Shown here one piece after another: positions 4,927-53,019 of a stretch of 64,000 nt of DNA. Origin of the DNA: an uncultured bacterium (lineage in GTDB: Bacteria > Bacillota > Clostridia > Lachnospirales > Lachnospiraceae); NCBI GenBank assembly GCA_947381965.1, contig CANCXX010000017.1, positions 19,436 to 83,435 of the forward strand. Direction: 5' to 3'. Every line of letters begins with the position of its first letter. Within the stretch, counting starts at the first letter, position 1. The notes beneath the pieces were generated by a model that saw only the letters and a program-made list of their open reading frames with translations, made no database searches and had not been told where the DNA came from. The translations under genes and the position numbers were made by a program.

Positions 4927-4931
4927 TCCCA

Positions 4932-5450: not shown

Positions 5451-5475
5451 TCCTTGGAAAGATTGAGGTGACATT

Positions 5476-29387: not shown

Positions 29388-29391
29388 GAAC

Positions 29392-29829: not shown

Positions 29830-30866
29830 AGCAAAGAATGAGAATTGCAATTACAATGGGAGATCCGGCTGGCGTTGGACCTGAAGTTATTGTAAAGGCA
29901 TTAAGTCATGCGGAAATATACCAAAAATGTATTCCGGTAGTAATAGGAGATTTGGCAGTTATGGAGGATGCTGTCCGCTTCTGTAATCTGCCAGTTGCAT
30001 TGTGTCAATTATCAGACGTGAGAGAAGCAAAAGGGGAATTTGGAAGTATAGATTTGATTAATATGAATCAAATTCACCCTGATGGATGGGAGTATAAAAA
30101 AAGTTGTGCAGAATGTGGAGAGGCATCCTTTCAATATGTCATATATGGGATTAAAGAGGCTATAAAAGGAAAAGTACAGGCTGTGGTAACGGCTCCCATT
30201 AATAAAGAATCAATAAACATGGCGGGACATAATTACAGTGGACATACGGAAATTTTTGCAGAGTATACAGGGACAAAGAATTTTGCCATGTTGCTTGCCA
30301 GTAAGACATTGCATGTTATTCATGTAACCACTCATTGTTCATTAAGGGAAGCATGTGATAGGATAAAAAAAGACAGGGTCTTAAATGTTATCAGGCTTGC
30401 CCAGAAGGGGATGTCTCAGCTGGGATACAAGAACCCTAAGATTGGAGTTGCAGGCTTAAATCCTCATTGTTCTGAAAATGGCCTTTTTGGGACAGAAGAA
30501 GAGAGGGAAATATTACCGGCAATAGAGGAAGCAAAAAAAGAGGGAATCAATGTCGTAGGGCCAGAATCACCAGACACTGTTTTTGTAAAATGCCAGGCTG
30601 GGCAATATGATATTGTGGTAGCCATGTATCATGATCAGGGACATATTCCGTTAAAGCTTAGTGGTTTTAAGTATGATTTACAAAAAGACAGATATGAATC
30701 TGTAAGTGGCATTAATTGTACAATAGGGTTGCCAATTGTCAGAACGTCAGTGGATCATGGCACTGCTTTTGGCAAGGCAGGAGAAGGCAGGGCAAATGAA
30801 GAAAGTATGATGGATGCAATTTTTGCGGGAGTAGAGATGGCGGAAAACAGGAGTAAAGAAGAATGA
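29826..30866 (+). CDS. PdxA-family NAD-dependent phospho-hydroxyacid dehydrogenase
   Basis: A 346-residue enzyme with the PdxA pattern: ITMGDPAGVGPEV at the start, TAPINKESI, HNYSGHTEI, AMYHDQGHIP and GLPIVRTSVDHGTAF. These contain the metal-binding His and Asp residues. True PdxA oxidises 4-phosphohydroxy-threonine in vitamin B6 synthesis; PdxA2-type relatives oxidise threonate or erythronate phosphates. Its place among CDP-polyol genes, with ATGA overlaps on both sides, argues that it makes a sugar-acid or amino-ketone precursor for the glycan and not B6. The substrate is unknown. Confidence 0.85.
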   Translation: MKQRMRIAITMGDPAGVGPEVIVKALSHAEIYQKCIPVVIGDLAVMEDAVRFCNLPVALCQLSDVREAKGEFGSIDLINMNQIHPDGWEYKKSCAECGEASFQYVIYGIKEAIKGKVQAVVTAPINKESINMAGHNYSGHTEIFAEYTGTKNFAMLLASKTLHVIHVTTHCSLREACDRIKKDRVLNVIRLAQKGMSQLGYKNPKIGVAGLNPHCSENGLFGTEEEREILPAIEEAKKEGINVVGPESPDTVFVKCQAGQYDIVVAMYHDQGHIPLKLSGFKYDLQKDRYESVSGINCTIGLPIVRTSVDHGTAFGKAGEGRANEESMMDAIFAGVEMAENRSKEE

Positions 30867-32056
30867 GTCATACGATTAGTTTCAGTAATCAAACATACAT
30901 AAAAAATGAACCAATCATTATTTATGGTGCAAGTGTATATGGTGAACTGGCTTATGTATCATTAAAACAAATGGGATGGATTCCTGATTTTTATTGTGAC
31001 AAATCCCGAAAAAGAAAAGAGTATTTTGGAACAAAGGTAATCAGTCCGGAAGAACTTGAAGGCTTTAAGGAATCAAATATTATTATAGCTTCTGCGGATT
31101 TTTTTTATGAAATAAAAAAAGAACTGGAAGAAAGAGGCTGCAGTAATTTATTTGATATGACAGAAATGCTGAAGATGGATATTCACAAGGAACAGCTTTC
31201 AAATCGTGCACGTGAAATGTACGATAATAAACAAAATTATATGAATATTGTTCAAAACCAATTAGAAGACAGACTGATTTTTAACAGGATACAGTATGTT
31301 GTTTCAGAACGGTGTACCCTAAAATGTAAGGACTGTTCTCACCTGATGCAGTATTATCAAAGGCCGGAAGATATAGACTTATGTGGGTACAAACCAGCTT
31401 TTGACCGATTACTGGACCAAGTAGATTGTATTGCAGAATTAAGAATTTTGGGCGGTGAGCCATTTATGAATAAAAACATGGATCAGTTGATTTGCTGGTA
31501 TCATGAAAGCAGTAAAATTCAAAATATTTCAGTTTATACAAATGGAACAATTATACCTTGTGAAGCTATTTTAATGTCTCTTCAAAAAGACAAGGTAAAA
31601 GTGCATATTTCCAATTATAAGATTAACGAAGATAAAATAAAAAAGCTTATAGAGGTATTTGAAGGATATCAGATCCGGTATTTTCTTAGAGAATATGATT
31701 CATGGCAGGATGCTGGTGGGGTAGAGCTTCGGAATTATTCAGTGGAACAGAAAAAGGAGGTTTTTTCGTCCTGTTTTGAGAGGAATGGATTCACTTTTTT
31801 AAAAGGAAGACTCTATAGGTGCCCAAGGGAAGCCCATGCAATGAATTTAAAGGCTATGCCTGATGTACGAGAAGACTATGTGGACTTTATGTATGAGGAT
31901 GCAATAAAAGAAGATTGGAAACAGCAGTTGAAAAAACTGCAGAATCGTTCCTGGCTGGAAGGATGTAATTATTGTGGGGGACCGGACAACCATGTACAAA
32001 GTATTCCAGCAGCGAGGCAGATTTCACAACCAGTCGAATATAGGCCACTATATTAA
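30863..32056 (+). CDS. Radical SAM enzyme with N-terminal Rossmann-like module
   Basis: A 397-residue protein. Residues about 15-100 form the island's recurrent Rossmann-like module (IIIYGASVYGELAY). The radical SAM domain follows with Cys 151, 155 and 158 (CTLKCKDC) and the GGEPF motif near 197. The C-terminal part has further cysteines (SSCF, RCPRE, GCNYCGG), enough for an auxiliary cluster of SPASM type. Likely a sugar or polyol modifying enzyme (dehydration, epimerisation or oxidation). The genes on both sides are a PdxA-like dehydrogenase and an aminotransferase, which suggests a three-step branch. The reaction is not predictable. Confidence 0.82.
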   Translation: MSHTISFSNQTYIKNEPIIIYGASVYGELAYVSLKQMGWIPDFYCDKSRKRKEYFGTKVISPEELEGFKESNIIIASADFFYEIKKELEERGCSNLFDMTEMLKMDIHKEQLSNRAREMYDNKQNYMNIVQNQLEDRLIFNRIQYVVSERCTLKCKDCSHLMQYYQRPEDIDLCGYKPAFDRLLDQVDCIAELRILGGEPFMNKNMDQLICWYHESSKIQNISVYTNGTIIPCEAILMSLQKDKVKVHISNYKINEDKIKKLIEVFEGYQIRYFLREYDSWQDAGGVELRNYSVEQKKEVFSSCFERNGFTFLKGRLYRCPREAHAMNLKAMPDVREDYVDFMYEDAIKEDWKQQLKKLQNRSWLEGCNYCGGPDNHVQSIPAARQISQPVEYRPLY

Positions 32057-32082
32057 GAAATACAGGCGGAAACGAGGACGAA

Positions 32083-33288
32083 ATGGAATATCGGTTTAGA
32101 AGTGAAGTTCGTAATGCTAAGAAAGCAGCGATGGGAGAAATGTATAATTTGGCAAAAGAAAATTTAAAGTCGGGAGATAAGCTGATCAATTTTGCCAGTG
32201 GTCATCCTTCTACAGAAGTGTTTCAGGACAAAATGATAAAAAAATATATGAATTTAGCCATGGAGGAAGCGGATAAGGAGCTATTCCAGTATGGGGCACA
32301 TGCAGGATATGCACCGCTTAGAAAATCCTTTACCGAGTTTATAAACCGGAAAGGAAATGTTGTAAAGCAGAAGGATGATTTAATTATCACTTATGGCGCT
32401 GTTGAAGCAATTTTTCTTACTGCTTCCGCTTTATTAGCAGCTGGAGATAAAGTGATAGTGGAAATACCATCATATGTAAATGCAATTAAGTCGTTCAAGA
32501 TTTTGGGCGGAGATGTTATAGGCGTAAATATGGACAGTGATGGTGTGAATCTGGATGAACTGGAAAAAGCAATGAGACATGGGGCAAAACTTTATTATAC
32601 AATTCCGAATTTTGGTAATCCGTCGGGAGTTACAATGTCATATCAAAAACGCAGGGAGGTATATGATTTGGCAGTAAAGCATCAGGTGTTGATTCTTGAG
32701 GATAATTCTTATGGCGATTTGCGTTACCGTAATCAGCGTATTCCAAATATAAAGGAATTTGATACTGAAGGGGTGGTTGTATATGTAGGGTCTATGTCCA
32801 AGCTTATTGCTCCGGCAATGAGAGTAGGATTCATGGCGGCAGACAAAGAATTTATTAATCGGATTATACCTATTAAAGCAGTAAGTACAAACGGTGTAAC
32901 GAGTATTATACAATATGCGATATGGAAAATGTTTGAAGAAAATGATATGTATGTCCAGATACAAAAAATATGTGATGTATATGCAAAAAAGTTGTTTTTA
33001 ATGGAAGAAAGCATGAAACAATATTTTCCCAAATCTGTAAAATTTTCATCACCTGATGGTGGAATGTATATCTGGGCTACATTGCCGAAAGGTTCTGATG
33101 TTCAAAAGTTCTGCAGGGAATCAGCAACTAGACTTCATATACCAATTACGCCAGGAAATGGATTTTGTGTTAAAGAGGATGAAAAATGTACAAGTATGCG
33201 GTTTAATTTTGTAAAAGAAAGTATGGAGGATATTGCGTATGGAATAGAGAAAGTAGGAGATTTGATGAAAGAGCATTTAACTAATTAG
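32083..33288 (+). CDS. PLP-dependent class I/II aminotransferase
   Basis: A 401-residue fold-type I aminotransferase. Internal lysine is K240 in VYVGSMSKLIAPAMRVGF; other signs are the TIPNFGNPSGVTMS block (about 173-186) and ILEDNSYGD (about 204-212). It resembles the aminoadipate/valine-type subgroup, not the DegT sugar aminotransferases that usually act in glycan loci. It may aminate the keto product of the dehydrogenase upstream. GAGG precedes the ATG. Full length, no oddities. Confidence 0.87.
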   Translation: MEYRFRSEVRNAKKAAMGEMYNLAKENLKSGDKLINFASGHPSTEVFQDKMIKKYMNLAMEEADKELFQYGAHAGYAPLRKSFTEFINRKGNVVKQKDDLIITYGAVEAIFLTASALLAAGDKVIVEIPSYVNAIKSFKILGGDVIGVNMDSDGVNLDELEKAMRHGAKLYYTIPNFGNPSGVTMSYQKRREVYDLAVKHQVLILEDNSYGDLRYRNQRIPNIKEFDTEGVVVYVGSMSKLIAPAMRVGFMAADKEFINRIIPIKAVSTNGVTSIIQYAIWKMFEENDMYVQIQKICDVYAKKLFLMEESMKQYFPKSVKFSSPDGGMYIWATLPKGSDVQKFCRESATRLHIPITPGNGFCVKEDEKCTSMRFNFVKESMEDIAYGIEKVGDLMKEHLTN

Positions 33289-33342
33289 TTTGTCTGTATG
33301 GAACCAAAAGTATCAGGTTATTTTTGAAGGGAGATATGGTAT

Positions 33343-34368
33343 ATGTTGTCAATATTAAACGAGTTCCGCGAGAGTCTGGACAATATTATGAATCAGGCAA
33401 TACATAACAGAGTTGTTTTATATGGGTATGAGAGCTACACAGGTAGATTTATTAAGTGGTATGCAGAATACTATCATAGTATAAAAATTGACTATCTTGT
33501 GTCAACGGATGTGAGCAGAAGTGGGAAATATGATTTGGAGGTTTTTCGTCCTTCTTTATTTAATTTTAATTATAAAGATGTAAGTCAGGCAATTGTATGG
33601 GTTGCAGAGCCAATGACGCAGGCTTTGTGCAGCAAGCTGGAAGCCAAAGGGTATATTAAAGAAAAAACATACTTTGATTTATATGAGGTAATATATGGTT
33701 CTGATACTTATGGAGTAAACGAGGGGCATATGGATATATTCAGGAAGAGAAAGGAAGGCAAAAGGGATATTCAGTTTCTTGAGTGGCTGGAGTGGAAGTA
33801 TGGTTGTAATTTTGTGACGCATATTCCACCTAATCAGTTAGAGGTTGTAAAAGGTGGGGGAGGATATACTGTTTCCACACAAAAAGAGATTTTTCCAATT
33901 CTGGACCATTGTCACTGTATTCCACAGGAGGAGGATGCAATATTTGATTATGGGTGTGGGAAAGGAGGTACAATTGTTTCCTTTTTAGATTACGGCTTTA
34001 AAAAAGCCGGTGGAATAGAGTATGAACCAAAGATATATGAAGTTTTGAGAGAAAATATAGGTAAGCTGGGATTAGAAAAGCAGACGGAGCTATTGTATGG
34101 TGATGCAGGGGAACTGACAGAACAGATTGACGGATATAACTGGTTTTTCTTTTTTACATTATTTGATGCTCATATTTTTGAAACATGTATTAAGGCTATA
34201 TGTGACAGTTATCATAGAAATAATAGAAAAATCCATATCATTAGTATTGCAGTAGTATCTGAATATAAATATATAGAGCAGACAGGTTTGTTTCGTTTGA
34301 CAAATCAGTTTACAGTGGATACACGGTCAAGAGTTGTTAATATATATGAAAGTTATATATGCAAATAA
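33343..34368 (+). CDS. SAM-dependent methyltransferase with N-terminal Rossmann-like module
   Basis: A 341-residue protein. Residues about 22-115 match the recurrent small module in layout (RVVLYGYESYTGRFI; here the second Gly pattern is degenerate). The class I methyltransferase core begins near residue 198 (AIFDYGCGKGGTIVSFLDYG), with a GDAGEL acidic motif near 255. It probably methylates a sugar of the flagellar glycan. AAGGGAGA lies before the ATG. Substrate unknown. Confidence 0.75.
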   Translation: MLSILNEFRESLDNIMNQAIHNRVVLYGYESYTGRFIKWYAEYYHSIKIDYLVSTDVSRSGKYDLEVFRPSLFNFNYKDVSQAIVWVAEPMTQALCSKLEAKGYIKEKTYFDLYEVIYGSDTYGVNEGHMDIFRKRKEGKRDIQFLEWLEWKYGCNFVTHIPPNQLEVVKGGGGYTVSTQKEIFPILDHCHCIPQEEDAIFDYGCGKGGTIVSFLDYGFKKAGGIEYEPKIYEVLRENIGKLGLEKQTELLYGDAGELTEQIDGYNWFFFFTLFDAHIFETCIKAICDSYHRNNRKIHIISIAVVSEYKYIEQTGLFRLTNQFTVDTRSRVVNIYESYICK

Positions 34369-34427
34369 CTTTGCGGAGCAGTGTCTGTAATCTATAAACA
34401 GATACCGGGTACAGATTTGGAGGTTTT

Positions 34428-35630
34428 ATGGATGATTTAATTAGTGTGATTGTTCCCATATATCATGTGGAACAATATTTAGAGCAATGTATTCAAAGTA
34501 TACGCAATCAGACCTACAAAAATTTGGAAATTATATTGGTTGATGACGGCTCAGATGACCAATGCCCTCAAATATGTGATAAACATGCAAGAGAAGATAA
34601 GCGTATTAAAGTAATCCATAAGAAAAATGCAGGACAGGATTCGGCCAGAAAAATGGGAATGTCAATTGCATCCGGGAATTATATAGGGTATGTGGATGGA
34701 GATGACTGGATAGAACCTGTTATGTATGAAAAGCTATTGGACTATGCTCACCAATATGAGGTGGATGTTGTAGAATCAGGGGCCATAGAGTTTTGGGGGA
34801 AAATAGAAAAAAACCGGACTTCATACTTACCGGAGGGGTGTTATAAGGGAAGGAACTTTATAGAGAAGGTGGAACCTCAAATTTTATATGCAGGTGTATT
34901 TTTCCAGCATGGAGTCTCTCCGTATCTATGGTCTAAACTTTTTTTAAAAGAAAGAATAATGAAATATCAGATGATAGAGGATTTAACCAATATTGTTCAT
35001 AATGATACCATGGTAACAATTCCCTGTATAGCTGAATCCAAAAGTATATATATATCATATGACTGCTATTACCATTACAGGGTGAGAATAAATTCTTCAA
35101 AAAGAAAATGCAGGTCAAATGAAGTGGGAAATTTGATGGAATGTTATCCACAGTTTTATGAAAGATTCCGTAAAACAATATTATGCTTAGAAAACGATAA
35201 ACAAATAAAATATTATACAATGTACTGGCTGCTTTATCGGGCTCCTGAAATATTTGACGACCCTTGTAAGGAAGATATTTTAATGCCTTTTGGCGGGGTT
35301 AGTAAAAATGCAAAAATTATTTTGTATGGGGCGGGGTCGGCAGGTATTCACCTTGGAAATTATATTCGGAGTATAGAAGGAAGCAATATTGTATGTTGGG
35401 TGGATCATAATTATAATGATTTGCAAAAAAATTTGGAGGTAAAAAATCCCAGGGAAATTATTAATTATGAGTATGATTATATTATTATTTCTATTCTAAG
35501 GGAAAGTGCTGTTAAGGGGGCCAGGAGCAATCTGACAGATTTAGGAGTACCGGAAGAAAAAATCCGCTGGATTGAACAAAGGTACATAGATAATCCGGAA
35601 TTATTATTAAGTAAGATAGTTAATGTTTAA
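34428..35630 (+). CDS. GT2 glycosyltransferase with C-terminal Rossmann-like module (1 of 5)
   Basis: A 400-residue protein. Residues 1-about 220 are a GT-A family 2 domain (ISVIVPIYHVEQYLEQCI, LVDDGSDD, YVDGDDWIE). From about residue 290 comes the recurrent module (IILYGAGSAGIHLGNYI, then WVDHNYND, then YDYIIISI). The GT2 part transfers a sugar from a nucleotide-sugar; the module is not part of known GT2 catalysis. Good ribosome site TTGGAGG. It is closely related to the next gene, so the pair may have arisen by duplication. Confidence 0.85.
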   Translation: MDDLISVIVPIYHVEQYLEQCIQSIRNQTYKNLEIILVDDGSDDQCPQICDKHAREDKRIKVIHKKNAGQDSARKMGMSIASGNYIGYVDGDDWIEPVMYEKLLDYAHQYEVDVVESGAIEFWGKIEKNRTSYLPEGCYKGRNFIEKVEPQILYAGVFFQHGVSPYLWSKLFLKERIMKYQMIEDLTNIVHNDTMVTIPCIAESKSIYISYDCYYHYRVRINSSKRKCRSNEVGNLMECYPQFYERFRKTILCLENDKQIKYYTMYWLLYRAPEIFDDPCKEDILMPFGGVSKNAKIILYGAGSAGIHLGNYIRSIEGSNIVCWVDHNYNDLQKNLEVKNPREIINYEYDYIIISILRESAVKGARSNLTDLGVPEEKIRWIEQRYIDNPELLLSKIVNV

Positions 35631-35658
35631 AAGTTAGGAAAGCAATGAGGGTAATGTA

Positions 35659-36855
35659 TTGATAAAAGTATCAGTTATAGTTCCTGTGTATAATATAAAA
35701 GACTGCCTGGAAAAGTGTATACAGAGTATTCAGAGACAGACATATGGAAATATAGAAATATTGTTAGTTAACGATGGGTCTACAGACGGGTCTGATATTA
35801 TATGCAGAAAGTATGCCCGGATTGACAGAAGAGTAGAAGTAATTGATAAAGAAAATGGAGGACTGGTATCGGCGAGAAAAGCTGGTATTTCCCGTGCAGA
35901 AGGGGATTATATTTTAAATGTTGACGGAGATGACTGGATAGAAGACATAATGATAGAATCATTAGTTTTAAAAGCAGAACAGACGAACGCAGACATAGTA
36001 ACTTCTGGATATTATCAGGAATCTTTAAAAAACATTGCTAAAGTAACAGATTCCATAGAGGAGGGTATTTATTATACAGATGAGGAAAAAAATTATTTTT
36101 ATCAGCGCATGATTTTTAACGGAAAAGTTGAAAGAAAAGGGATAATGCAGTCTATTTGTACTAAGTTAATAAGGGCCAGTCTGTTCAGAGAAGTATATTT
36201 GCGTGAAAGTGAATATATTGTTCTTGGCGAAGACACAGCATCGTTGTATAGCTGCTGTGTTCAGGCTGATAAAATTATGGTTACACATGATGCCTATTAC
36301 CATTATGTGAAACGCTTAAGCTCTATTACCCATACAAAGGATAAATTTTTTTTGCGGAATGTAAATGAAGTGTATTTATTCATGAGCTATTTTTTTGAGA
36401 AAAGTAAATATAAAAAAGTGCTGTGTGAACAGCTTGATTTACTGATCATGCAGTACTGTTTGTGGGGAATTAATTATATGTTTGATATGACCCCCAAAAT
36501 ATTAATGCCATATTATAATTTTCCGGCGGAAGGATTTTTAAATGGAAAAAAAATAATTATATATGGAGCGGGAAAAGTTGGGCAGTCATATTATAAGCAA
36601 TTTCAGGCAGATACAAGCTGTAAAGTTGCAGGGTGGGTGGATCAGAGGTTTGAGCATTATAGAGAGAAAGGATATCCGGTAAACTCCATAGAGATAGTAG
36701 GCAAATTGGAGTATGATTACATAATTTTGGCATTTAAATATAAAGATATGGCAGAACAGGTAAAGGAATTACTGATATCAGAGTATGGGATATATGAATC
36801 AAAGTTTATCTGGAAGGAGCCGTTTAGTGTTTTAGACAAATACTGGATGGAATAG
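35659..36855 (+). CDS. GT2 glycosyltransferase with C-terminal Rossmann-like module (2 of 5)
   Basis: A 398-residue paralogue of the gene upstream: VSVIVPVYNIKDCLEKCIQS, LVNDGSTDGS, NVDGDDWIED, then the module IIIYGAGKVGQSYYKQF with WVDQRFE and YDYIILAFKY from about residue 296. The initiation codon is TTG at 35659, decided by GAGGGT 7 bases upstream; the nearby ATG is out of frame. Acceptor and donor unknown. Confidence 0.84.
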   Translation: MIKVSVIVPVYNIKDCLEKCIQSIQRQTYGNIEILLVNDGSTDGSDIICRKYARIDRRVEVIDKENGGLVSARKAGISRAEGDYILNVDGDDWIEDIMIESLVLKAEQTNADIVTSGYYQESLKNIAKVTDSIEEGIYYTDEEKNYFYQRMIFNGKVERKGIMQSICTKLIRASLFREVYLRESEYIVLGEDTASLYSCCVQADKIMVTHDAYYHYVKRLSSITHTKDKFFLRNVNEVYLFMSYFFEKSKYKKVLCEQLDLLIMQYCLWGINYMFDMTPKILMPYYNFPAEGFLNGKKIIIYGAGKVGQSYYKQFQADTSCKVAGWVDQRFEHYREKGYPVNSIEIVGKLEYDYIILAFKYKDMAEQVKELLISEYGIYESKFIWKEPFSVLDKYWME

Positions 36856-36891
36856 CCGGAGAAGAATGAGACAGAAGGAGATATTAAATTA

Positions 36892-38469: not shown

Positions 38470-38487
38470 AAAGGTAAAGAGGAAGCC

Positions 38488-39720: not shown

Positions 39721-39727
39721 AAAAGGC

Positions 39728-41011: not shown

Positions 41012-41044
41012 TGGTTTGATATATACGCATAAGGGGGGATAAAT

Positions 41045-42418: not shown

Positions 42419-42519
42419 AAGCTTGAGGGAAAGTTTCTGGGTTATAAATAGATACAGTTTTGCAGAATGGGAACAGTGTATTTTTGAGATAGAATAAAGC
42501 AATATGGAGAGATGAAATA

Positions 42520-43788: not shown

Positions 43789-43822
43789 AGGACGGTTCAG
43801 AAGAACGTTATAAGGAGTTAAT

Positions 43823-44488
43823 ATGAAGATAGTTGCCGTAGTGCCAATGAAACTGAACAACAAAAGACTGCCAAATAAGAATATTAAAAAGTTTACAAAG
43901 GGAAACCCTTTGTGCTGGTATATTCTTTCCACGCTATTAAAGGTAAAGTATATTGATGAAGTATATGTTTATTGCAGTAATGAGATGATTTGCCAGTATA
44001 TTCCAAATGAAGTGAAGTATTTGAAAAGAAGCGAAAACTTAGATCTGGATGAGACATCTATGAATGAAGTATTGGAAGCGTTTGCAAATGAGATATATGC
44101 GGATGTATATGTTATGACCCATACAACTGCACCATTTGTAAAGGCGGGATCTATACAAAAAGGAATAGAAGCCGTTTTGTATAATGGCTATGATTCTGCG
44201 TTTGCAGCAAAGAAATTGCAGGATTTTATGTGGAAAGACGGAGTACCTTTAAATTATGACTTAAATAATATTCCACGTACACAGGATCTTCCTGTGCTAT
44301 ATCAGGAAACAAGTGGGTTCTATATATATGGCATTGATACTATCAGGGAACAAAAAAGGAGGATAGGAAATAATCCATATATTGTTGAAGTGGGAGAAAT
44401 AGAGAGCTGTGATATAGATGAGGGCGAAGATTTTATTATAGCAGATGCTGTCTATAATTTTTTATTCAGAGAGGGAAGTGTAGAATGA
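43823..44488 (+). CDS. NeuA-like CMP-sugar (acylneuraminate/KDO-type) cytidylyltransferase
   Basis: A 221-residue enzyme: VVPMKLNNKRLPNKNIKKF at the start (nucleotide-binding P-x-K/R-x-x-S/K-x-R-x-x-x-K loop), MTHTTAPF near 100, and a QETSGFYIY block near 160. The family forms CMP-activated 2-keto-3-deoxy sugar acids such as neuraminate, legionaminate, pseudaminate and KDO. No NeuB, NeuC or Pse/Leg synthesis genes are in the window, so the keto-acid must come from elsewhere in the genome or from a different route. ATGA overlap with the next gene. Confidence 0.85.
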   Translation: MKIVAVVPMKLNNKRLPNKNIKKFTKGNPLCWYILSTLLKVKYIDEVYVYCSNEMICQYIPNEVKYLKRSENLDLDETSMNEVLEAFANEIYADVYVMTHTTAPFVKAGSIQKGIEAVLYNGYDSAFAAKKLQDFMWKDGVPLNYDLNNIPRTQDLPVLYQETSGFYIYGIDTIREQKRRIGNNPYIVEVGEIESCDIDEGEDFIIADAVYNFLFREGSVE

Positions 44489-45999: not shown

Positions 46000-46027
46000 C
46001 GCTTGTACACTTAAAATGAGGAATGGT

Positions 46028-48346
46028 ATGGTAAGTTTTGATATTTTTGATACTTTGATTACAAGAACGACTGCTAATCCGTGCGGAATATTTGCAATTA
46101 TGCAGCATGTATTGAATACGGATGAATCATATAGAGATATTTCAGCCCACATACGTGCAAATTTTTATACACTTCGAATTCATGCTGAAGAGCTTGCACG
46201 CTACAATAATATGGCAAAGGGAGAAGAAGAAGTAACCTTAAAAGAGATATATAAGGCGCTTGCCATGTCAGGAGGGCTTACAGCAGAAGTAACTGAAAGA
46301 CTGTTGTTGTTGGAGTGTAGAATAGAACAGGAAAATATCCTTCCAATTAAAAGAAATATAGATCTGCTTAAAGAAAAAATTAAATCAAAGGAACGGGTAG
46401 TGTTGATTTCGGATATGTACCTGCCATTAAATGTGATAACTGGTATACTGGAAAGTATTGATGATATATTTAAAAATATTACTGTCTATGTTTCATCTGA
46501 ATTGAGGGTAAGAAAAACATCTGGAGAAATTTACAAAAAGATTAAAGAAATTGAAAACATCGAATATTTTCAATGGACACACTATGGTAATGACTTGCAA
46601 CAGGATGTTATAAAAGCAGAAATGCTTGGAATTCGTGCAATTCATTTGAAATGGCAGGGGCTGACCTGCTATGAGGAGAAGTTTACAGAAGTTTTTTCTT
46701 CAAATGTAAGCTTTCAATTAATGGCTGGATTAGCCAGATATGCAAGGGAGGCAGCAGGGAATGAAGTCTCATACCAGATTGGAGCATCAATCTGTGGTCC
46801 ATTATTATATGAATATGCAGACTGGATAATAAGGGAAAGTGTAAGAAAAGGAATAAAACGTTTATATTTTATTGCACGTGATGGGTATTTAGTAAAAGTG
46901 GCTGCTGATAAAATAATTACGGCTGGAAGAATGGATATTGAGACAAAGTATATTTATGGGTCCCGAAAAGCATGGAGAATGTGTTCTTTGACTTTTGAGG
47001 ATTTTAATCTTGTTCAGATGCTGCGGTGGTCGTATGTTCATAAAATTCAAACGCCAAAAGATCTGGCTGATGTTCTTGAAATAGATTATGGGAAGATTTT
47101 GCCATTTTTGCCCCATGCCTGTAAGAATGAAAATACAGAATTATCGCAGCAGGCTCTGCATATACTTGCGCAAAGGCTGGAGCAGAATTTGGAGTTTAGA
47201 AAGATATTTCTGCAAAATCAAAAGGAAAAGAGAAAGCTTGCATGTAAGTATATTCAACAGGAAGTAGATATTTCTGATGAAAATTTTGCGTTTGTTGATG
47301 TGTCGGGAGGTGGCTTGACGCAGGGGTGCTTAAGAAGAATTATGTCTGATTTTTATAAAAAACCTATTCAGACATTTTTCTTTAAACTGGATAGAGTTGA
47401 TCTTGTCAAAAATTGTATTTTCTATGTATTTTTTCCAAGTGCAATAAAAAATAATCTGGTGATAGAAATGATATGCAGAGCGCCTCATGGACAGACGATA
47501 GGATATACAAGTGAGAATGGAAGGATTATACCATCCCTGGATTACTTTGAAAACAAAAAGCTGATGGAGCAGGGATTTGTTCAGATGCAGTTGGGAATGG
47601 AAAAATATGTAGAGTACATGCTTATGGCTGGCAGTTACAGGAATTTACAGGATTCGCTTGGCATAGTAGAAAAATATTTGATTTATGTTGCCGAAACGCC
47701 AGATAAGGATGTTTTAGAGTATTTTGCCAGCTTTCCTAATAATGAAAGCGGAAGAGAGCATGAGGTAACAGAATATGCTCCTAAGCTAAGTAAAGAAGAT
47801 ATTTTAAACATATTTGTAAGAAGAATGCCAGGAGAACACATAAGCAGCTGCTACACAGGTACAGACATTGAGTACTCTGTTTTAAGATGTAGTGAAGAAG
47901 AAAGAACGCTTATTGACAGGTGTAAAAGAGAATTTAATGCTGGATGGGCAAAGCATGAGCGTGCGGAAAAAATTCGAACGGAAAATATTGAAATACAAAA
48001 ATATGGAAAGGCAGCATATTATCCATGTGAATTGCTGGAGAAGGACATTATTTTGTATGGAGCAGGTAAGTTGGGAAAGCGTTTGTATAAAAAAATACTG
48101 GACACAGGAAAAAGTAGCATTGTCAGATGGGTTGATAAAAATGCAGGGAACGCTTCCTGTCCTGATAATGTGGAGACACCAGATTTGCTTATGGAAACCC
48201 AATATGATCAAATAGTAATTGCAGTAATAAATCTTGATATGGCGGAACAGATAAGACAAGAACTGGTAAAATTGGGAATATCAGAAGAAGTGATATTCTG
48301 GGTACAGGCGTATGGAAAAAAATATGTAAAAATAAAGTGGGAGTGA
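46028..48346 (+). CDS. HAD-family protein with C-terminal Rossmann-like module
   Basis: About 772 residues. The N-terminal 220 are a HAD hydrolase with VSFDIFDTLITRT (the nucleophile-acid pair DxFDT), LISDMYLP (motif II) and YGNDLQQDVIKAEMLGI (motif IV). Residues about 225-660 are a conserved but uncharacterised region (CGPLLYEYADWIIRES, FIARDGYLVKVAADK, FVDVSGGGLTQG). Residues about 670-770 are the recurrent module (IILYGAGKLGKRLYKKI, WVDKNAG, IVIAVINLD). Proteins of this layout occur in glycan clusters and may be sugar phosphatases. The start at 46028 has GAGGA 5 bases upstream; ATG 46016 lies 12 bases earlier without a good site. Confidence 0.75.
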   Translation: MVSFDIFDTLITRTTANPCGIFAIMQHVLNTDESYRDISAHIRANFYTLRIHAEELARYNNMAKGEEEVTLKEIYKALAMSGGLTAEVTERLLLLECRIEQENILPIKRNIDLLKEKIKSKERVVLISDMYLPLNVITGILESIDDIFKNITVYVSSELRVRKTSGEIYKKIKEIENIEYFQWTHYGNDLQQDVIKAEMLGIRAIHLKWQGLTCYEEKFTEVFSSNVSFQLMAGLARYAREAAGNEVSYQIGASICGPLLYEYADWIIRESVRKGIKRLYFIARDGYLVKVAADKIITAGRMDIETKYIYGSRKAWRMCSLTFEDFNLVQMLRWSYVHKIQTPKDLADVLEIDYGKILPFLPHACKNENTELSQQALHILAQRLEQNLEFRKIFLQNQKEKRKLACKYIQQEVDISDENFAFVDVSGGGLTQGCLRRIMSDFYKKPIQTFFFKLDRVDLVKNCIFYVFFPSAIKNNLVIEMICRAPHGQTIGYTSENGRIIPSLDYFENKKLMEQGFVQMQLGMEKYVEYMLMAGSYRNLQDSLGIVEKYLIYVAETPDKDVLEYFASFPNNESGREHEVTEYAPKLSKEDILNIFVRRMPGEHISSCYTGTDIEYSVLRCSEEERTLIDRCKREFNAGWAKHERAEKIRTENIEIQKYGKAAYYPCELLEKDIILYGAGKLGKRLYKKILDTGKSSIVRWVDKNAGNASCPDNVETPDLLMETQYDQIVIAVINLDMAEQIRQELVKLGISEEVIFWVQAYGKKYVKIKWE

Positions 48347-48418
48347 GACGAGATAAGTTGGAAAACTCACTATTGATGCAGTACCGCAAGCCTTGCTTGC
48401 GATATGTGGGGTATAAGT

Positions 48419-51292
48419 ATGGCAGTTTTACATAAAGAATATTTTGATGGAAAATCATTATCTCCATCTGCAATAGATCAGACAATTTTGGACTACATGG
48501 AAACTTCCTGTAAGGAATATTATGATGAAGAGATTTCTGATGACGGACGCTTTCAAGTGTGGATGCAGCTATCCAGTTTAAGGACAGGATTATTTAGCTG
48601 GTATGATTTTAGGAAGAATGCAGAGGTACTGGAAATTGGCGCTGGCTTTGGTGCGCTGACAGGAATTTTGTGCGAAAAATGTGGTCATGTGTGGGCTACG
48701 GAGAAGCTATGGCATCGGGCAGCGGCAATTGCGAGCCGTTGGGAAAAGAAAAAAAATTTGGATGTTTATGCTGGAGAATGGTCAAAGATGAACTTCGGAA
48801 GAAAGTTTGATTATGTCATTTTGACAGGCATTCTGGAAAAGGCCTGTAATGGTGTGGCAGATAGGAGACAATATATAGATTATATAAAGAATGTATTAAA
48901 GTTATTAAAGAAAGATGGTATTTTGCTTGTTGCAGTGGAAAACCGTCTGGGACTTAAATATTTTTGCGGAGCGAAAGGAACTTATAGCAGGAAAGCCTTT
49001 GAAGGAATCAATGGCTATCCGAATGGGGGACGGGGATATACCTTTAGCAGACAAGAGCTTAACAATATTATAAAAGAAGCCGGATTTTCCCAACTTAAAT
49101 TTTATTATCCCCTGCCGGATTATAAACTGCCACAGATGATTTATACAGATGAATATTTGCCGGAAAGGAATTTAAAGGAACGTCTGATCCCCTATTATAC
49201 AGATAAAAACTCTCTGATTGTTATGGAAATTGATTTGTATGATGATGTAATAGAAAATGGTGCATTTCCTTTTTTTGCTAATTCATTTTTGGCGGAATGC
49301 GGAAAAGAGGAAGACATGAACACAGCAGTATATGCCGCGGTGTCAACTGACAGAGGAATGGAAAGAGGGTGTGCGACAGTCATCTATCAGGAAAATAAGG
49401 TTTGTAAGAGGGCGTTATTTAGGGAAGGAATTAAAAATCTTAAATTAATGTGCCATAATCTGGAGGACTTAAAAACACACAAAATACCAGTGGTAGATTA
49501 TCAGTGGAATGGAACAGATATATCTATGCCGTATGTGCCTTATCCTATGTTGTCAAATTATTTAAAATTGCTTATAGCAGCAGATACAGAACGATTTATA
49601 AAAATTCTGGACCAGCTCTATGCACTTATTCTGCATTCATCAAATCAGATACATGGCAGAAATAAATTGGCAGAGTGGTTGTGTGAACAGTCAGAAAATG
49701 AAGAAGAAAAGGAAATTATCAGAATGCTGGATTGGGGACCTGTTTTGGAGAAGGTTTATATTGAGCTGATTCCGTTAAATTGTTTTTATGATCCGGAAAA
49801 GGGAGCATTTCTATTTTTTGACCAGGAGTTTGTTAGGGAAGAATATCCAGCCAAGTACACGTTATTCCGTGCAATTCACTATATTTACTGCTTTACCCCT
49901 AACGCGGGAAAATATCTTTCTCAGAAGAAGCTTTATGAGAGATATGGGATGGAGAGACTGTGGAATTATTTTGTAAAGGAAGAACATCGGTTTCTGGACG
50001 AGATTAGAAATCATAGAAAGTATGGTCAGTTTTACCTATGGGCAGGGATAGATAAAAAAGCCGTTTATAAAAACGCAGATAAGCTACAGTCAGAAGAGGA
50101 GAGGATTGCTGAATATAAGATTTCTGACAAGATGAAGAGAACTTGGAAGGTAGAGCTGGCTATGTTGGATGAAGTGGAGAGAATCTGCCGAAAATATAAG
50201 CTTACTTATTTTCTTGTCCATGGAAGTCTTTTGGGGGCACTGCGTCATAAAGGCTTTATTCCCTGGGATGATGATTTGGATATTGCTATGCCGAGAAAGG
50301 ATTATGACCAGTTTCTTCAGATTGCAGAGAGTGAATTAAAAGAGCCATTATCGCTGCATACTCCCAAAACAGAAGAGGATATGTTCTGGGGGGGATATGC
50401 GAGGATGCGCAATGGCATTACCACAGGGATGGAAGTCAGGTTTTTGGGACGTAAAGGAAATCTGGGAATCTGGATTGATATTCTGCCATTGGATATTTGC
50501 CCAATGGATGAGAGCAAATTTGAAAAGAAACAGAGGAGAATCCGTCATTGCCATCGGTTGATTAATGCAAAAATTAATAAAAAGACCCCTGTAAAAATTG
50601 GAGATATAAAAAAGATTAATTGGAACTGCTATAAGCTGATGGCGAAGTTTTATAGTCATGAAAAAATTTGTCACATGCTGGATGATGCAATGCAGATGTA
50701 TGATGGGGAAGATTCTGAAGACGTAGCTTTTTTTACCAGTTCTTATGGACATAGAAGGTTGTCTGCCAAGGACTTTATGGGAACAAAGCTGCTGGAATTT
50801 GAGCATCGAAAGGTGCCTGTACCTGCAGGATATGAAAACTATTTATTTATGACAATGGGAAAAGATTATTTAAAATATCCACCGGAGGAAGAACGAAAAC
50901 CAAAGCATAAGGGAATTTTTGACCCGGAGAGAACATATAAGGAGTATACAGACATCTTATGTGGAAAGTTTGATAATGTGAAAGGAAAACAAATTATACT
51001 TTTTGGCTCTGGAAAAATGTTTGAAGACTATATGCAGAAATTTGGCAGAAAATACCGTCCTTCGTTTCTGGTTGATAATGATGAAACTAAATGGGGAAGA
51101 CAAAGGATGGGAATTGATATCAAAAAACCGGAAGCCATTTTTGATGTTTCAGAAGATAATCGGAGATTGATTATCTGTAGCTTCTATTATAGGGAGATTA
51201 TTCAACAGCTTGAGCAGCTGGGAATACATGAATATAAAGTTTATGTCCAGAGGATTGATTGGATTCTCAAAACGGAAGAAGAGAGAAAATAA
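48419..51292 (+). CDS. Methyltransferase-LicD-Rossmann multidomain protein
   Basis: The largest protein in the window, 957 residues. Residues about 20-290 are a SAM methyltransferase (VLEIGAGFGALTGILCEKCG near 70, VAVENRLGLKYF near 175). Residues about 300-560 are a region with kinase-like hints (FFDQEFVREEYP) that I cannot identify. Residues about 580-830 are a LicD domain (GSLLGALRHKGFIPWDDD near 602, IDILPLD near 687). The last 100 residues are the recurrent module (IILFGSGKMFEDYMQKF, FLVDNDETKWG). It probably both methylates and adds a CDP-linked group to the same glycan. Start ATG 48419 follows TGGGGT; ATG 48404 is possible. Confidence 0.8.
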   Translation: MAVLHKEYFDGKSLSPSAIDQTILDYMETSCKEYYDEEISDDGRFQVWMQLSSLRTGLFSWYDFRKNAEVLEIGAGFGALTGILCEKCGHVWATEKLWHRAAAIASRWEKKKNLDVYAGEWSKMNFGRKFDYVILTGILEKACNGVADRRQYIDYIKNVLKLLKKDGILLVAVENRLGLKYFCGAKGTYSRKAFEGINGYPNGGRGYTFSRQELNNIIKEAGFSQLKFYYPLPDYKLPQMIYTDEYLPERNLKERLIPYYTDKNSLIVMEIDLYDDVIENGAFPFFANSFLAECGKEEDMNTAVYAAVSTDRGMERGCATVIYQENKVCKRALFREGIKNLKLMCHNLEDLKTHKIPVVDYQWNGTDISMPYVPYPMLSNYLKLLIAADTERFIKILDQLYALILHSSNQIHGRNKLAEWLCEQSENEEEKEIIRMLDWGPVLEKVYIELIPLNCFYDPEKGAFLFFDQEFVREEYPAKYTLFRAIHYIYCFTPNAGKYLSQKKLYERYGMERLWNYFVKEEHRFLDEIRNHRKYGQFYLWAGIDKKAVYKNADKLQSEEERIAEYKISDKMKRTWKVELAMLDEVERICRKYKLTYFLVHGSLLGALRHKGFIPWDDDLDIAMPRKDYDQFLQIAESELKEPLSLHTPKTEEDMFWGGYARMRNGITTGMEVRFLGRKGNLGIWIDILPLDICPMDESKFEKKQRRIRHCHRLINAKINKKTPVKIGDIKKINWNCYKLMAKFYSHEKICHMLDDAMQMYDGEDSEDVAFFTSSYGHRRLSAKDFMGTKLLEFEHRKVPVPAGYENYLFMTMGKDYLKYPPEEERKPKHKGIFDPERTYKEYTDILCGKFDNVKGKQIILFGSGKMFEDYMQKFGRKYRPSFLVDNDETKWGRQRMGIDIKKPEAIFDVSEDNRRLIICSFYYREIIQQLEQLGIHEYKVYVQRIDWILKTEEERK

Positions 51293-51348
51293 ATTATAAG
51301 TGGTTACTTTCAGAAAAAATTATCTGGAGGCAGGAAAGGTGAAGAAAA

Positions 51349-52260
51349 ATGGAGTTATCCAGGTATCAATACATAGTAGGATATGGAATCGGACAATATT
51401 ATGATTATATAAAAACAAAAATTTCATCAGAAATTCATTTGGATTATCTGTGTGATATGAAATGGAAGCAGATAGGAAGGGAGTATGATGGCGTAGAGGT
51501 GATATCACCAGATAAATTGAGGACACTGGAAAATGTATTTGTTATCATTTTTTCTGGTAATCCGAGAAATTATCAGTCAATAAGCAATATGATGAAAACA
51601 ATAAATCTTCCTTTCGCTCATATTAATCAGATAATCCGGTTAGAGTATTCTATTTCAGGGAAAAGATTGAAAGAAACAGGGAAGAGTGTTTATTGCGACA
51701 GCAATGGAAACAGAATTGAATTTGCCAGGGACATTGAGGATACGGTAGAAATAAATTTTCAGGGGGAAAATAACCTGATTAAAATAGGGAAAGGTGTAAG
51801 TGTGGGAAGACTGAGCATCTACTGTGGAAACTCGTCCATATGCAGTATTGGTGAAGGAACGATAATTGAGGGGGCAACAATTTATGCGACAAATGGAGAG
51901 GTAATAATCGGAAAGGATTGTCTGTTTTCTCATCAGGTTGTTATAAGAAATCATGATTCCCATCATATTTTTGACCGAAATACAGGCAGAAGAATAAATG
52001 GATCGGGAAATATAAACATTGGAAATCATGTATGGATGGGATACGGGGCAACCGTACTTGGAAATGCCGCAATTGGAGATAACAGCATAGTAGGAACAAT
52101 GGCTGTCACATCATCATCCTTTCCAAGGGAAGTAGTTGTGGCAGGAAATCCAGCAAGAATTATTAGGAAAAATGTATGCTGGTCAAAAGATAATACAAAT
52201 TTCTATGACAGGAAATCTTTAGATGCGTGTCTGGCACAAGAAGCATATCAATATTTTTAG
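51349..52260 (+). CDS. Hexapeptide-repeat acyltransferase with N-terminal Rossmann-like module
   Basis: A 303-residue protein. Residues 1-95 are a recurrent module (YIVGYGIGQYYDYIKTKI, YLCDMKW, VIIFSGNPRN). Residues about 125-290 are a left-handed beta helix acyltransferase: IGKGVSVGRLSIY, VIIGKDCLFSHQVVIRNHD, IGNHVWMGYGATVLGNAAIG and VVAGNPARIIRKN, with NHDSHH as probable catalytic His region. The same module-plus-LbH order occurs in PglD-type acetyltransferases, where the module binds the UDP-sugar acceptor, but the helix here is of the CatB/WbbJ type. Likely O- or N-acetylation of a glycan sugar. Confidence 0.82.
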   Translation: MELSRYQYIVGYGIGQYYDYIKTKISSEIHLDYLCDMKWKQIGREYDGVEVISPDKLRTLENVFVIIFSGNPRNYQSISNMMKTINLPFAHINQIIRLEYSISGKRLKETGKSVYCDSNGNRIEFARDIEDTVEINFQGENNLIKIGKGVSVGRLSIYCGNSSICSIGEGTIIEGATIYATNGEVIIGKDCLFSHQVVIRNHDSHHIFDRNTGRRINGSGNINIGNHVWMGYGATVLGNAAIGDNSIVGTMAVTSSSFPREVVVAGNPARIIRKNVCWSKDNTNFYDRKSLDACLAQEAYQYF

Positions 52261-52302
52261 ATACATAAAACCTTTTATCAAGAGATAAGGAGTATGTGAG
52301 AA

Positions 52303-53019
52303 ATGCAGTCAAAGAAATACAAAAAAGGATATGTTCCGGGGGTATATGATTTATTTCATGTTGGGCACCTGAATTTAATACATGGAGCAAAAGCGCAAAG
52401 CGAATACTTATTGGCAGGTGTCCTGTCAGATGAATTAGTGGTGCATTTTAAGGGGAAAAAACCATACATTCCATTTGAAGAGAGAATAGCGATTGTAGAA
52501 GCGCTTAGAGAAGTAAATGAGGTCGTAAGGGTGGACTTTTCCAATACAGTCAAAATGGATGCGTGGAAATTATATCATTTTGATGCCTACTTTTCCGGAG
52601 ATGATCATGGCAATGAGTGGGACAAGGAGAAGAAAGCATTGCAGAAAGTTGGTTCAGATATTGTGTTCCTTCCTTACACCAAAAGTACAAGCTCAACTAT
52701 GATCAAGGAGAAAATACAGAAAGAAAACAAAAGAAAACGGCTTTATTTATTTGGAGCAGGGCGAGTTGGACAAAGGATACGAAAGGATTTGGAAATAAGT
52801 ACTGAGAAGAATAAATGGGAGGTTGTAGGTTTTCTGGATAACTCCCCCCAAAAGCATTTGACCCGTGTTTTGGGGGTTCCAGTATATAAACCGGAGGATT
52901 TAAAGACTTTGGAAGCAGAAGGGGATTTTGCTATTTTTATTACAATGAAGGATGAAAATGCCCCTATAGAGCAAATACAAATGCTTGGGGTTGGGGACAA
53001 TGTAATAAACCGAGTTTAA
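52303..53019 (+). CDS. TagD-like cytidylyltransferase with C-terminal Rossmann-like module
   Basis: A 238-residue protein. Residues 1-140 are a cytidylyltransferase (GVYDLFHVGHLN at 12-23, YTKSTSSTMIKEKI near 125), similar to the stand-alone gene at 29392. Residues about 145-238 are the recurrent module (LYLFGAGRVGQRIRKDL, GFLDNSPQK, FAIFITMKD). It is the third CDP-forming module of the island, each with a different partner domain. Last plus-strand gene; the convergent glycosyltransferase gene ends 13 bases away and no terminator is seen between them. Confidence 0.86.
   Translation: MQSKKYKKGYVPGVYDLFHVGHLNLIHGAKAQSEYLLAGVLSDELVVHFKGKKPYIPFEERIAIVEALREVNEVVRVDFSNTVKMDAWKLYHFDAYFSGDDHGNEWDKEKKALQKVGSDIVFLPYTKSTSSTMIKEKIQKENKRKRLYLFGAGRVGQRIRKDLEISTEKNKWEVVGFLDNSPQKHLTRVLGVPVYKPEDLKTLEAEGDFAIFITMKDENAPIEQIQMLGVGDNVINRV

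Follow-up and report, generated by a model that had tools for sequence, protein, structure and literature searches.

A PglD_N-like accessory module shared by unrelated glycan enzymes of a proposed flagellin-glycosylation island

It is an old suspicion that the enzymes of bacterial glycan pathways work in multi-enzyme assemblies, yet sequence rarely reveals a common part by which the members of such an assembly could be recognised. The window analysed here, a stretch of 64,000 nucleotides from an uncultured Lachnospiraceae bacterium, raises the question of why enzymes of unrelated folds, encoded in one gene run, carry the same small module in either orientation. The run sits between flagellin genes, at 18233 on one side and at 54277 (- strand) and 60857 on the other, and contains the following features.

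28554..53019, + strand: run of 19 genes in one direction, gaps of at most 101 bp, low G+C
28554..29829, + strand: LicD protein (277 aa) and cytidylyltransferase (145 aa), in-window relatives without the module
30902..31186, + strand: module A, N-terminal in the radical SAM protein 30863-32056 (E = 3.2e-16)
33403..33687, + strand: module B, N-terminal in the methyltransferase 33343-34368 (E = 2.3e-5)
35304..35588, + strand: module C, C-terminal in the GT2 protein 34428-35630 (E = 1.8e-14)
36541..36813, + strand: module D, C-terminal in the GT2 protein 35659-36855 (E = 8.5e-17)
39439..39708, + strand: module E, C-terminal in the GT2 protein 38488-39720 (E = 1.1e-14)
39719..39979, + strand: module F, N-terminal in the MptE-like/DUF115 protein 39728-41011, mechanical start 39695 (E = 2.1e-16)
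42101..42370, + strand: module G, C-terminal in the GT2 protein 41045-42418 (E = 1.8e-15)
43474..43755, + strand: module H, C-terminal in the GT2 protein 42520-43788 (E = 2.2e-11)
44491..44787, + strand: module I, N-terminal in the WcbI protein 44485-45999 (E = 9e-14)
45697..45945, + strand: module J, C-terminal in the same WcbI protein 44485-45999 (E = 3.9e-8)
48041..48310, + strand: module K, C-terminal in the HAD-like protein 46016-48346 (E = 7.1e-14)
50981..51247, + strand: module L, C-terminal in the methyltransferase-LicD protein 48404-51292, its methyltransferase part below the Pfam cut-off (E = 9.5e-19)
51364..51648, + strand: module M, N-terminal in the hexapeptide acyltransferase 51349-52260 (E = 4.4e-10)
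52723..53001, + strand: module N, C-terminal in the cytidylyltransferase 52303-53019 (E = 1.2e-15)

The module is a Rossmann-like domain of approximately 90 residues, and a sequence-only reading of the window had counted about fourteen copies of it. This count was borne out: a profile built on 218 modules of relatives and of other contigs in the same genome, with none from the window, recovered exactly these 14 of 14 (E = 9.5e-19 to 2.3e-5; search space 1558 sequences), and the next-best window match had E = 6.9. Since the 218 modules had been gathered via a window-copy profile, the test is sequence-independent, not blind. None of 779 shuffled ORFs was matched at E <= 10, and the window-free search with these shuffled controls rules out a chance motif. 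A candidate fifteenth copy inside the 39728 protein was not significant (E = 17). We found that 40 of the 91 window module pairs score above the 99% mark set by 2000 shuffled pairs, so that the other 51, taken one by one, do not reveal the relation; the homology of all window copies is nonetheless well supported. Module B, with a degenerate Gly loop and Asp, is the most divergent copy, and modules J and M are identical at 39 of 86 residues (45%). No window copy is claimed by any Pfam family at its cut-off.

All ORFs named in the sequence-only reading are present, with starts that differ from the mechanical ORF starts in three cases (39695/39728, 46016/46028 and 48404/48419). Its partner list agrees with ours: GT2 (five proteins), radical SAM, methyltransferase, MptE-like/DUF115, WcbI, HAD, LicD, hexapeptide acyltransferase and CTP_transf_like, where the radical SAM and methyltransferase assignments both lie below the Pfam cut-off and the HAD assignment comes only from NCBIfam matches below cut-off.

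We propose that 28554..53019 is a flagellin-glycosylation island. Its glycan genes lie in a flagellar locus with flagellin genes on both flanks, the arrangement that marks such islands, and in 7 of the 9 module-rich members of the genus the island is at most 17 kb from a flagellin gene. The flagellin glycosylation islands of Geobacillus hold glycan genes, Maf genes and FkbM-type methyltransferase genes between flagellin flanks (PMC5109656), and the present run resembles them in this. The words 'Rossmann' and 'fused' do not occur in the main text of that paper, and the passages of it examined describe no shared module (PMC5109656). Likewise, no shared module across such glycan enzymes was described in the titles and abstracts covered by a literature search. 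The enzymes bearing the module would build and modify a single surface glycan, which for this island is probably the flagellin glycan.

We found 252 modules, N-terminal, C-terminal or internal, in 49 stretches of 18 genomes, all selected for having module matches. Over the window and its relatives the partners belong to about 20 Pfam-level enzyme families, an approximate figure, since each tally was limited to its 25 commonest families, some of which share proteins and several of which are related methyltransferases. The same add-on thus sits on many other glycan enzymes in related bacteria, a scale beyond that of the earlier reading. At most 12 candidates were scored per genome in the relatives, where many single matches look, by frame length, like Rex or PglD-type proteins; at least 2 of the 252 modules (L073:9055 and L090:3645) belong to PglD/NeuD-type acetyltransferases by sequence, the L090 protein being the PF17836 match G001:C13. 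The 35 module-rich stretches contain 232 genes with the module and 130 without, a ratio that describes module-rich stretches, not genomes, because the regions were picked for module matches. The 232 are of any length and include a single duplicated piece of a gene (L083/L084). For the 130, an ORF was counted only if it lay between module genes on the same strand and reached 100 aa, and at least one of them (L071:1532) has a degenerate copy by eye. The simple ORF caller may miss genes, as with a stand-alone module gene of genome G007 that is absent from its list. Labelling approximately two-thirds of the genes in such stretches, and missing from most precursor enzymes, the module could help to assign uncharacterised genes to a glycan pathway.

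We asked whether the module is an ordinary catalytic part of its partners. Module-less homologues of several partner enzymes exist, by sequence comparison, and this makes it well supported that the module is accessory; in these sequence-based tests neither the objection that it is an ordinary catalytic part nor that of unrelated folds among the modules was upheld. A module-less homologue occurs in 18 of 80 partner groups, although some of the 18 arise where a fetched stretch ends (groups 4, 29, 71 and probably 15) or have a copy degenerate by eye, and the 80 include short, split and truncated proteins. Among 86 HAD homologues, taken from the 80 top-ranking loci out of 541 confirmed and with some module-less ORFs cut by contig ends, 79 lack the module, 5 carry it C-terminally and 2 N-terminally. 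Together, the 18 groups and the HAD set rule out a part needed by each partner family. The module also co-occurs by island: other module genes are present at the locus for 7 of 7 module-bearing HAD homologues and for 2 of 79 module-less ones (Fisher p = 7e-9, taking related loci as independent). Module-less members of partner families co-occur in the same islands.

The module prefers assembly steps. None of 40 genes in sugar-nucleotide-precursor clusters carries it (Fisher p = 2e-20, or 6e-14 with CTP_transf_like counted as precursor, again taking related loci as independent). The precursor classes were assigned by a Pfam scan of a single member per cluster, once the clusters with no module-bearing relatives had been seen. 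No module was found in the epimerase, DegT, NeuB and NTP-transferase clusters; unlike these precursor enzymes, CTP_transf_like cytidylyltransferases do carry it.

Among the profiles compared, a set outside which Rex lay, PglD_N is the nearest family by sequence, and the earlier suggestion of a likeness to the N-terminal domain of PglD-type enzymes proved real in profile-profile comparison. A 53-row profile (53 of 60 references from 82 passing the filter; the 7 dropped looked, by impression, truncated or PglD-like) aligned with PglD_N over its whole length at 96.8% (hhalign, columns 6-96 to 2-97), and the 14 window copies did so at 95.0%. With the 53-row profile, the DUFs of large phosphoglycosyl transferases (PGTs) from these genomes reached 84.9%, epimerases 39.4% over 31 columns only and GFO/IDH 1.4%. 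This last score, and a GFO/IDH protein at 24626 of the window whose NAD-type Rossmann part is unmatched by the module profile, rule out an ordinary NAD Rossmann domain. Against the PF17836 gathering score of 23.4 bits, the best window copy scored 19.5, below the cut-off, and one module in the relative G014 passes it. The N-terminal placement in PglD/NeuD resembles that in the window acyltransferase, and domain length is the same by profile alignment. To our knowledge, PglD_N occurs only on acetyltransferases, whereas the present module is found on approximately 20 enzyme families.

The link to the PGT DUF (PF13727), which like the module stands beside glycan-assembly catalytic domains, is weak. 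In a PDB search the 53-row profile matched residues 148-237 of WbaP at 3e-5, ranking it behind 3nkl, Rex (second, 7e-9), a designed TIM barrel (5.7e-6) and also a dinucleotide reductase (9.4e-6). WbaP was absent from the PDB matches at E <= 1 when the profile consisted of just the 14 window copies, and the DUF comparison then gave 25.8%. None of the scanned window proteins matched CoA_binding_3 (PF13727) at E <= 1, and the window's own genome has three true PF13727 proteins separate from the module.

Turning to the residues of the module, we found GxG retained in 216 of 253 rows (one row being a duplicate), GxGxx(G/A) in 166 and the beta-2 Asp in 192. This first Asp contacts ribose in the PglD-type enzyme Pcryo_0637, and UDP is contacted by a loop Ser and a second Asp (PMC8040287). 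At these last positions, matched by eye, Ser occurs in 11 of 253 rows and Asp in 4, the second Asp being variable also among PglD-type proteins of these genomes. The Gly loop is lost in some copies, such as module B and, by eye, a 145-aa protein of L217, and its loss is not associated with that of the Asp (Fisher p = 1). On the module tree, partner enzyme required 136 changes against 188 when shuffled and N- or C-terminal position 40 against 71. Island required 206 against 211, so that modules do not cluster by island, and the tree gives no hint of a docking code particular to an island or of within-island co-adaptation.

Our leading reading, to which we give slightly less than even chances, is that the module is a shared accessory PglD_N-like domain, with a more remote relation to the cytoplasmic DUF of WbaP and other large PGTs, that would group or gate the enzymes of assembly steps. 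Its recurrence across enzymes points to a shared component by which a glycan assembly line may be organised or controlled. The order of parts varies: start-of-48404, LicD and module, or cytidylyltransferase and module, in the window; elsewhere, start-of-48404, module and cytidylyltransferase (6 proteins), cytidylyltransferase, module and LicD, LicD and module, or module and LicD. The WbaP DUF forms a dimer interface and is stabilised by UMP, UDP and UTP, and UMP inhibits WbaP (PMC10942596); in EpsZ, the DUF has been modelled with strand augmentation and a docked regulator (PMC12802240). By analogy with the WbaP DUF, the module may self-associate and bind a nucleotide, which would keep the glycan enzymes together, adjust their activity to the pathway's nucleotide state, or both. 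Stand-alone module proteins, some with a hydrophobic N-terminus, occur in the relatives, and the form with this N-terminus, present in some members of the genus, may tether the assembly to the membrane; no close copy of the anchored form was found in the window's own genome. The conserved Gly loop and Asp fit a ligand more than docking.

A handle of the PglD kind, which would grip an activated sugar or polyol by its nucleotide and present it to the catalytic domain, strikes us as doubtful. PglD_N is the best profile match among those tried, with its cut-off passed by the G014 module; the GxG and the ribose-contacting Asp are mostly retained; and Methyltransf_14 is also matched by 2 of 81 module proteins. 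However, the Ser and second Asp of PglD are seldom present, GT2 enzymes possess a donor site of their own, and the HAD enzyme carries the module at its N-terminus, at its C-terminus or not at all. Moreover, absence from the precursor clusters weakens a pure NDP-sugar handle. The sequence-only reading was supported in part: the modules are homologous, accessory and found in one kind of gene cluster, and the shared adaptor that it proposed, binding a common nucleotide-sugar or lipid carrier or docking the enzymes, remains hypothetical.

We consider it improbable that each enzyme is regulated separately, with no docking, by a Rex-like sensor of NAD(H) or the nucleotide pool. The NAD(H)-binding domain of Rex shows a similar loop and beta-2 Asp pattern, and Rex ranks second in the PDB search, but a full dinucleotide fold is about twice the 90 residues of the module, the loop is lost in some copies independently of the Asp, and Rex attaches this domain to a DNA-binding domain rather than to glycan-pathway enzymes. 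That the module is a promiscuous domain spread by recombination between adjacent genes, serving no common function, is highly improbable: the 45% identity of J and M, with detectable DNA similarity confined to the module, speaks for such spread, and against it stand the 232 to 130 ratio, the module-less precursor clusters and the conserved motifs.

Returning to grouping or gating, an explicit version, which we regard as unlikely, makes the module a homotypic, nucleotide-responsive docking domain, so that transferases and decorating enzymes would dock onto one another and, in some genomes, onto an anchored stand-alone module protein, giving a reconfigurable surface or flagellin glycan line. The docking domains of polyketide synthases follow a comparable logic. 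One domain offers a handle for testing deletion, ligand and partners across the whole pathway.

Lastly, C2185-like_N (PF22674), under whose names a literature search returned no paper, is matched by one window module at E = 1.5e-4 (22.4 bits, not reaching the cut-off of 27) and by 8 of 191 non-GT2 module proteins, the best of which (E = 9.8e-7) may pass it; two further scored rows have 23.2 and 21.2 bits, below 27. Its structure 2g6t was matched in the PDB search at 1.3e-4.

The window is a flagellar region of a 4.31-Mb genome (92 contigs) and contains these flagellin genes:

18233: flagellin
54277, minus strand: flagellin
60857: flagellin

Between the flagellin genes, at 20 to 52 kb, G+C is 0.32-0.37 compared to 0.42-0.45 outside (4-kb bins). 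A run of 19 co-directional genes with intergenic gaps of at most 101 bp spans 28554-53019, and 13 of the 19 carry the 14 copies (A to N) of a Rossmann-like module of approximately 90 residues. The members of the run without the module are:

28554: LicD
29392: cytidylyltransferase
29826: PdxA
32083: aminotransferase
36892: HMGL-like
43823: CTP_transf_3

The C-terminal part of the HMGL-like aldolase (36892-38469) has no family assignment and resembles MptE-like/DUF115 proteins by eye only, and a relative at 4706-6328 of genome stretch L129 lacks the module.

We found that the 14 copies are homologous, as the sequence-only reading had claimed. All 14 were recovered by a profile of 218 modules without window sequences (E 9.5e-19 to 2.3e-5), a test that is not fully blind since the 218 modules were gathered by a search begun from the window copies. 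The profile is specific: there were no matches among 779 shuffled ORFs, and none at domain E < 5 among 528 other ORFs of the fetched loci, which include NAD-dependent epimerases and the GFO/IDH enzyme. Apparent degenerate modules, with the glycine loop lost and scores below the profile threshold, can be made out by eye in a few of the 528, including:

L071:1532-4387
L032:13637-14896
L098:18368-19825
L076:12026-13645

A profile from the alignment of the 14 window copies found 37 matching places in the window's genome (E ≤ 0.1). Across a 40-genome set, 24 genomes had matches at E ≤ 1e-3: the window's own, 19 of its 23 congeners in the set, and 4 of the 16 genomes that belong to other families of the order.

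The module is distributed over many enzymes and islands. Among 49 stretches from 18 genomes, selected for module matches, we counted 252 distinct modules (253 before one duplicate was removed), of which at least two are PglD/NeuD-type acetyltransferases proper (L073:9055, L090:3645). A 70-residue rule places 131 modules at the N-terminus, 91 at the C-terminus and 17 internally, leaving 13 that have no large partner (n=252); a 60-residue rule gave 131, 97, 17 and 8, respectively (n=253). The remainders of the module proteins fall into 80 blast groups, counting singletons and short or cut proteins. For the 191 module proteins that do not belong to the GT2 group, Pfam partners include FkbM, TylF, other methyltransferases, radical SAM, CTP_transf_like, Gly_transf_sug/Caps_synth, hexapeptide, DUF4422, LicD, WbsX, WcbI, MptE-like, GT4, CDP-glycerol transferase, AP_endonuc_2, GT-D, pyruvyl transferase and DUF268, and DUF1796 is a further partner. 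Two neighbouring minus-strand ORFs, L033:4963-5793 and 5794-6333, read like a split form of the window's module-DUF115 protein. In a phylum sample of 398 genomes, with at most 12 candidates scored per genome, 23 genomes (the window's own included; 13 family codes by table reading) had at least five matches, while 302 had at least one, many of these Rex-looking. These counts indicate that module-rich genomes are patchy, yet extend beyond one genus.

Our data indicate that the module is accessory to its enzymes. We scanned the named genomes for the HAD-like enzyme and examined the 80 best-ranking of 541 confirmed loci. They contain 86 homologues, of which 79 lack the module, 5 have it at the C-terminus and 2 at the N-terminus. 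For this enzyme the module is therefore no ordinary catalytic part needed by stand-alone homologues, an outcome that would have spoken against the sequence-only reading. Within these 80 loci, the seven module-bearing homologues occupy six loci, each with at least one further module gene, compared to a module elsewhere in the locus for 2 of the 79 others (Fisher 7e-9, with loci treated as unrelated and some ORFs cut by contig ends). One of the six loci is from the spirochaete Brachyspira alvinipulli, and another (L111) is a stretch of genome G021 already in the sample. The B. alvinipulli 6-kb contig (L180) encodes two module proteins, a HAD-like protein and a relative of the radical SAM protein in the window.

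Clean pairs of the same enzyme with and without the module include L036:3639 (330 aa, DUF1796) with L085:14399 (220 aa); a further such pair is L078:5398 (424 aa, in one group with an AP_endonuc_2 protein) and L101:4576 (316 aa). The order of parts also varies. The window has the start of methyltransferase-LicD protein 48404 followed by LicD and module, and cytidylyltransferase followed by module. Elsewhere we found the start of 48404, module and cytidylyltransferase (L069, L078, L079, L082:3924, L093, L101); cytidylyltransferase, module and LicD (L071:2-1039, cut at the stretch end); LicD and module (L086, and L082:8291 with the start of 48404); and module and LicD (L070, L082:10581). Window modules J (C-terminal on WcbI protein 44485-45999) and M (N-terminal on hexapeptide acyltransferase 51349-52260) share 39 of 86 residues, and detectable DNA similarity is confined to the module.

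Over the 35 stretches that hold three or more modules, the module is present on 232 genes and absent from 130, the latter counted as ORFs of 100 aa or more that lie between module genes on the same strand. Eight clusters, holding 40 of the 130, have no relative among 251 module proteins at E ≤ 1e-4: CTP_transf_3/SIS/HAD sugar-phosphate enzymes (12), NeuB (6), epimerase (6), DegT (5), NTP transferase (5), UDP-GlcNAc 2-epimerase (2), GHMP kinase (2) and IspD-like (2), each named from one scanned member and the first also from window protein 43823. The 40 genes compared to the remaining 322 gave a Fisher p of 2e-20, and p is still 6e-14 when CTP_transf_like cytidylyltransferases are counted as precursor enzymes; both values are descriptive since the precursor classes were named after the clusters were seen. 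These cytidylyltransferases are an exception, as they also make activated precursors and eight module proteins match CTP_transf_like. Clusters with both forms are GT2, GT4, radical SAM, acyltransferase and CTP_transf_like (names partly by eye). The module thus shows a preference for enzymes that act in assembly and decoration.

On a FastTree phylogeny of the 253 modules (approximately 90 columns), partner group changed 136 times against a shuffled mean of 188 and a minimum of 79, and N/C position 40 times against 71. Changes of island (206 against 211) and genome (183 against 188) were near the shuffled means. Modules thus mostly travel with their own enzyme, and some have passed from one enzyme to another; islands do not hold matched module sets.

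The module resembles nucleotide-binding families. Searching the PDB with a 53-row profile, the top match was 3nkl (UDP-D-quinovosamine 4-dehydrogenase, 5e-10), then Rex (7e-9), with lower matches including a designed TIM barrel (5.7e-6), tetrahydrodipicolinate reductase (9.4e-6), WbaP residues 148-237 (3e-5, below both of these), 2g6t (1.3e-4) and PglD-type VioB (0.0037). With the 14 window copies as query the best were 3nkl (5e-7), 2g6t (8e-5) and Rex (1e-4), and WbaP was absent at E ≤ 1. The likeness to PglD_N noticed earlier was borne out by profile-profile comparison with families drawn from the same genomes, Rex not among them: PglD_N scored 96.8% with the 53-row profile and 95.0% with the window copies alone, and the phosphoglycosyl transferase DUF (PF13727) 84.9 and 25.8%, respectively. 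Using the 53-row profile, epimerases reached 39.4% over 31 columns, GFO/IDH 1.4%, the GT2 catalytic part 0.2%, and the FkbM catalytic part and NeuB 0.1% each. The window's genome also has genuine PF13727 (n=3) and PglD_N (n=2) proteins separate from the modules.

The main rival explanation is that the module is a substrate handle, as in PglD, whose N-terminal family is the highest-scoring in the profile comparison. UDP is contacted in Pcryo_0637 and PglD by one Ser and two adjacent Asp (PMC8040287). Measured against these contacts, and with positions matched by eye, the module has a conserved counterpart for the first Asp only: the Ser is Ser in 11 of 253 module rows and the second Asp is Asp in 4 of 253. 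Since the second Asp varies also in PglD-type proteins of these genomes, the comparison discriminates only weakly. The first loop of the module has conserved columns of Gly (98%), Gly (87%) and Gly/Ala (54/22%), and a conserved Asp (75%) follows strand 2. Of 253 rows, 216 keep GxG and 192 keep this Asp, and their losses are not associated in these rows.

The best studied relative we found is the DUF of WbaP, which makes up the larger part of the dimer interface; UMP, UDP and UTP stabilise this DUF, and UMP inhibits WbaP (PMC10942596); strand augmentation and regulator binding were modelled for the EpsZ DUF (PMC12802240). By analogy with the WbaP DUF, we propose that the module would self-associate and bind nucleotide, and that such an accessory domain would group and tune assembly-step enzymes. 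Our data show the homology of the copies, their family resemblance, their accessory status and their distribution over enzymes and islands; self-association, a bound ligand, tethering to the membrane and an influence on enzyme activity are inferred. Searches of the accessible parts of the open-licence literature brought up no account of such a shared module.

The module also occurs as a stand-alone protein of approximately 158 aa, with a hydrophobic N-terminal segment followed by a linker and the module; over 19 residues, 8 of the 10 short proteins inspected have a mean hydropathy of 1.5-2.5. Among 15 genus-group genomes, five encode full-length relatives (G001, G007, G009, G010, G014), with further relatives in G021 and G022. 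The window's genome has weak relatives only, including a 145-aa protein on contig C25 with no such segment by eye. In the phylum sample, 2 of 398 genomes matched at 1e-10 (G397 and G377, both many-module), and neither match covered the hydrophobic segment; the G397 match is a 153-aa protein with no such segment by eye and the G377 matches lie within longer frames. The anchored form is thus so far seen only within the genus.

Nine genus-group genomes with at least seven modules (G000, G001, G002, G006, G007, G008, G009, G010, G014) were searched for flagellin and modules, and in seven of them a flagellin gene lies within 17 kb of the nearest listed module on the same contig. G008 has one lone module 16 kb from a flagellin gene, with neither of its module clusters near, and the G001 islands sit on contigs without a flagellin match, as does, among other islands, that on contig C8 of the window's genome. 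Since some islands lack a flagellin match, the module is not tied solely to flagellin glycosylation. In L129, found via the HAD scan, a flagellin-like gene adjoins a module island. Within the window, FlgL-like protein 10786-12873 (plus strand) and flagellin 54277-55770 (minus strand) have a common inserted segment (91 identities in 184 aligned residues) containing a TTCCTC-type cysteine motif. By eye, the single protein encoded at 24626-25987 joins a cytidylyltransferase-like N-terminus to a downstream GFO/IDH-type oxidoreductase, and L107:15271-19011 encodes a 1246-aa relative with 71% identity over 444 residues.
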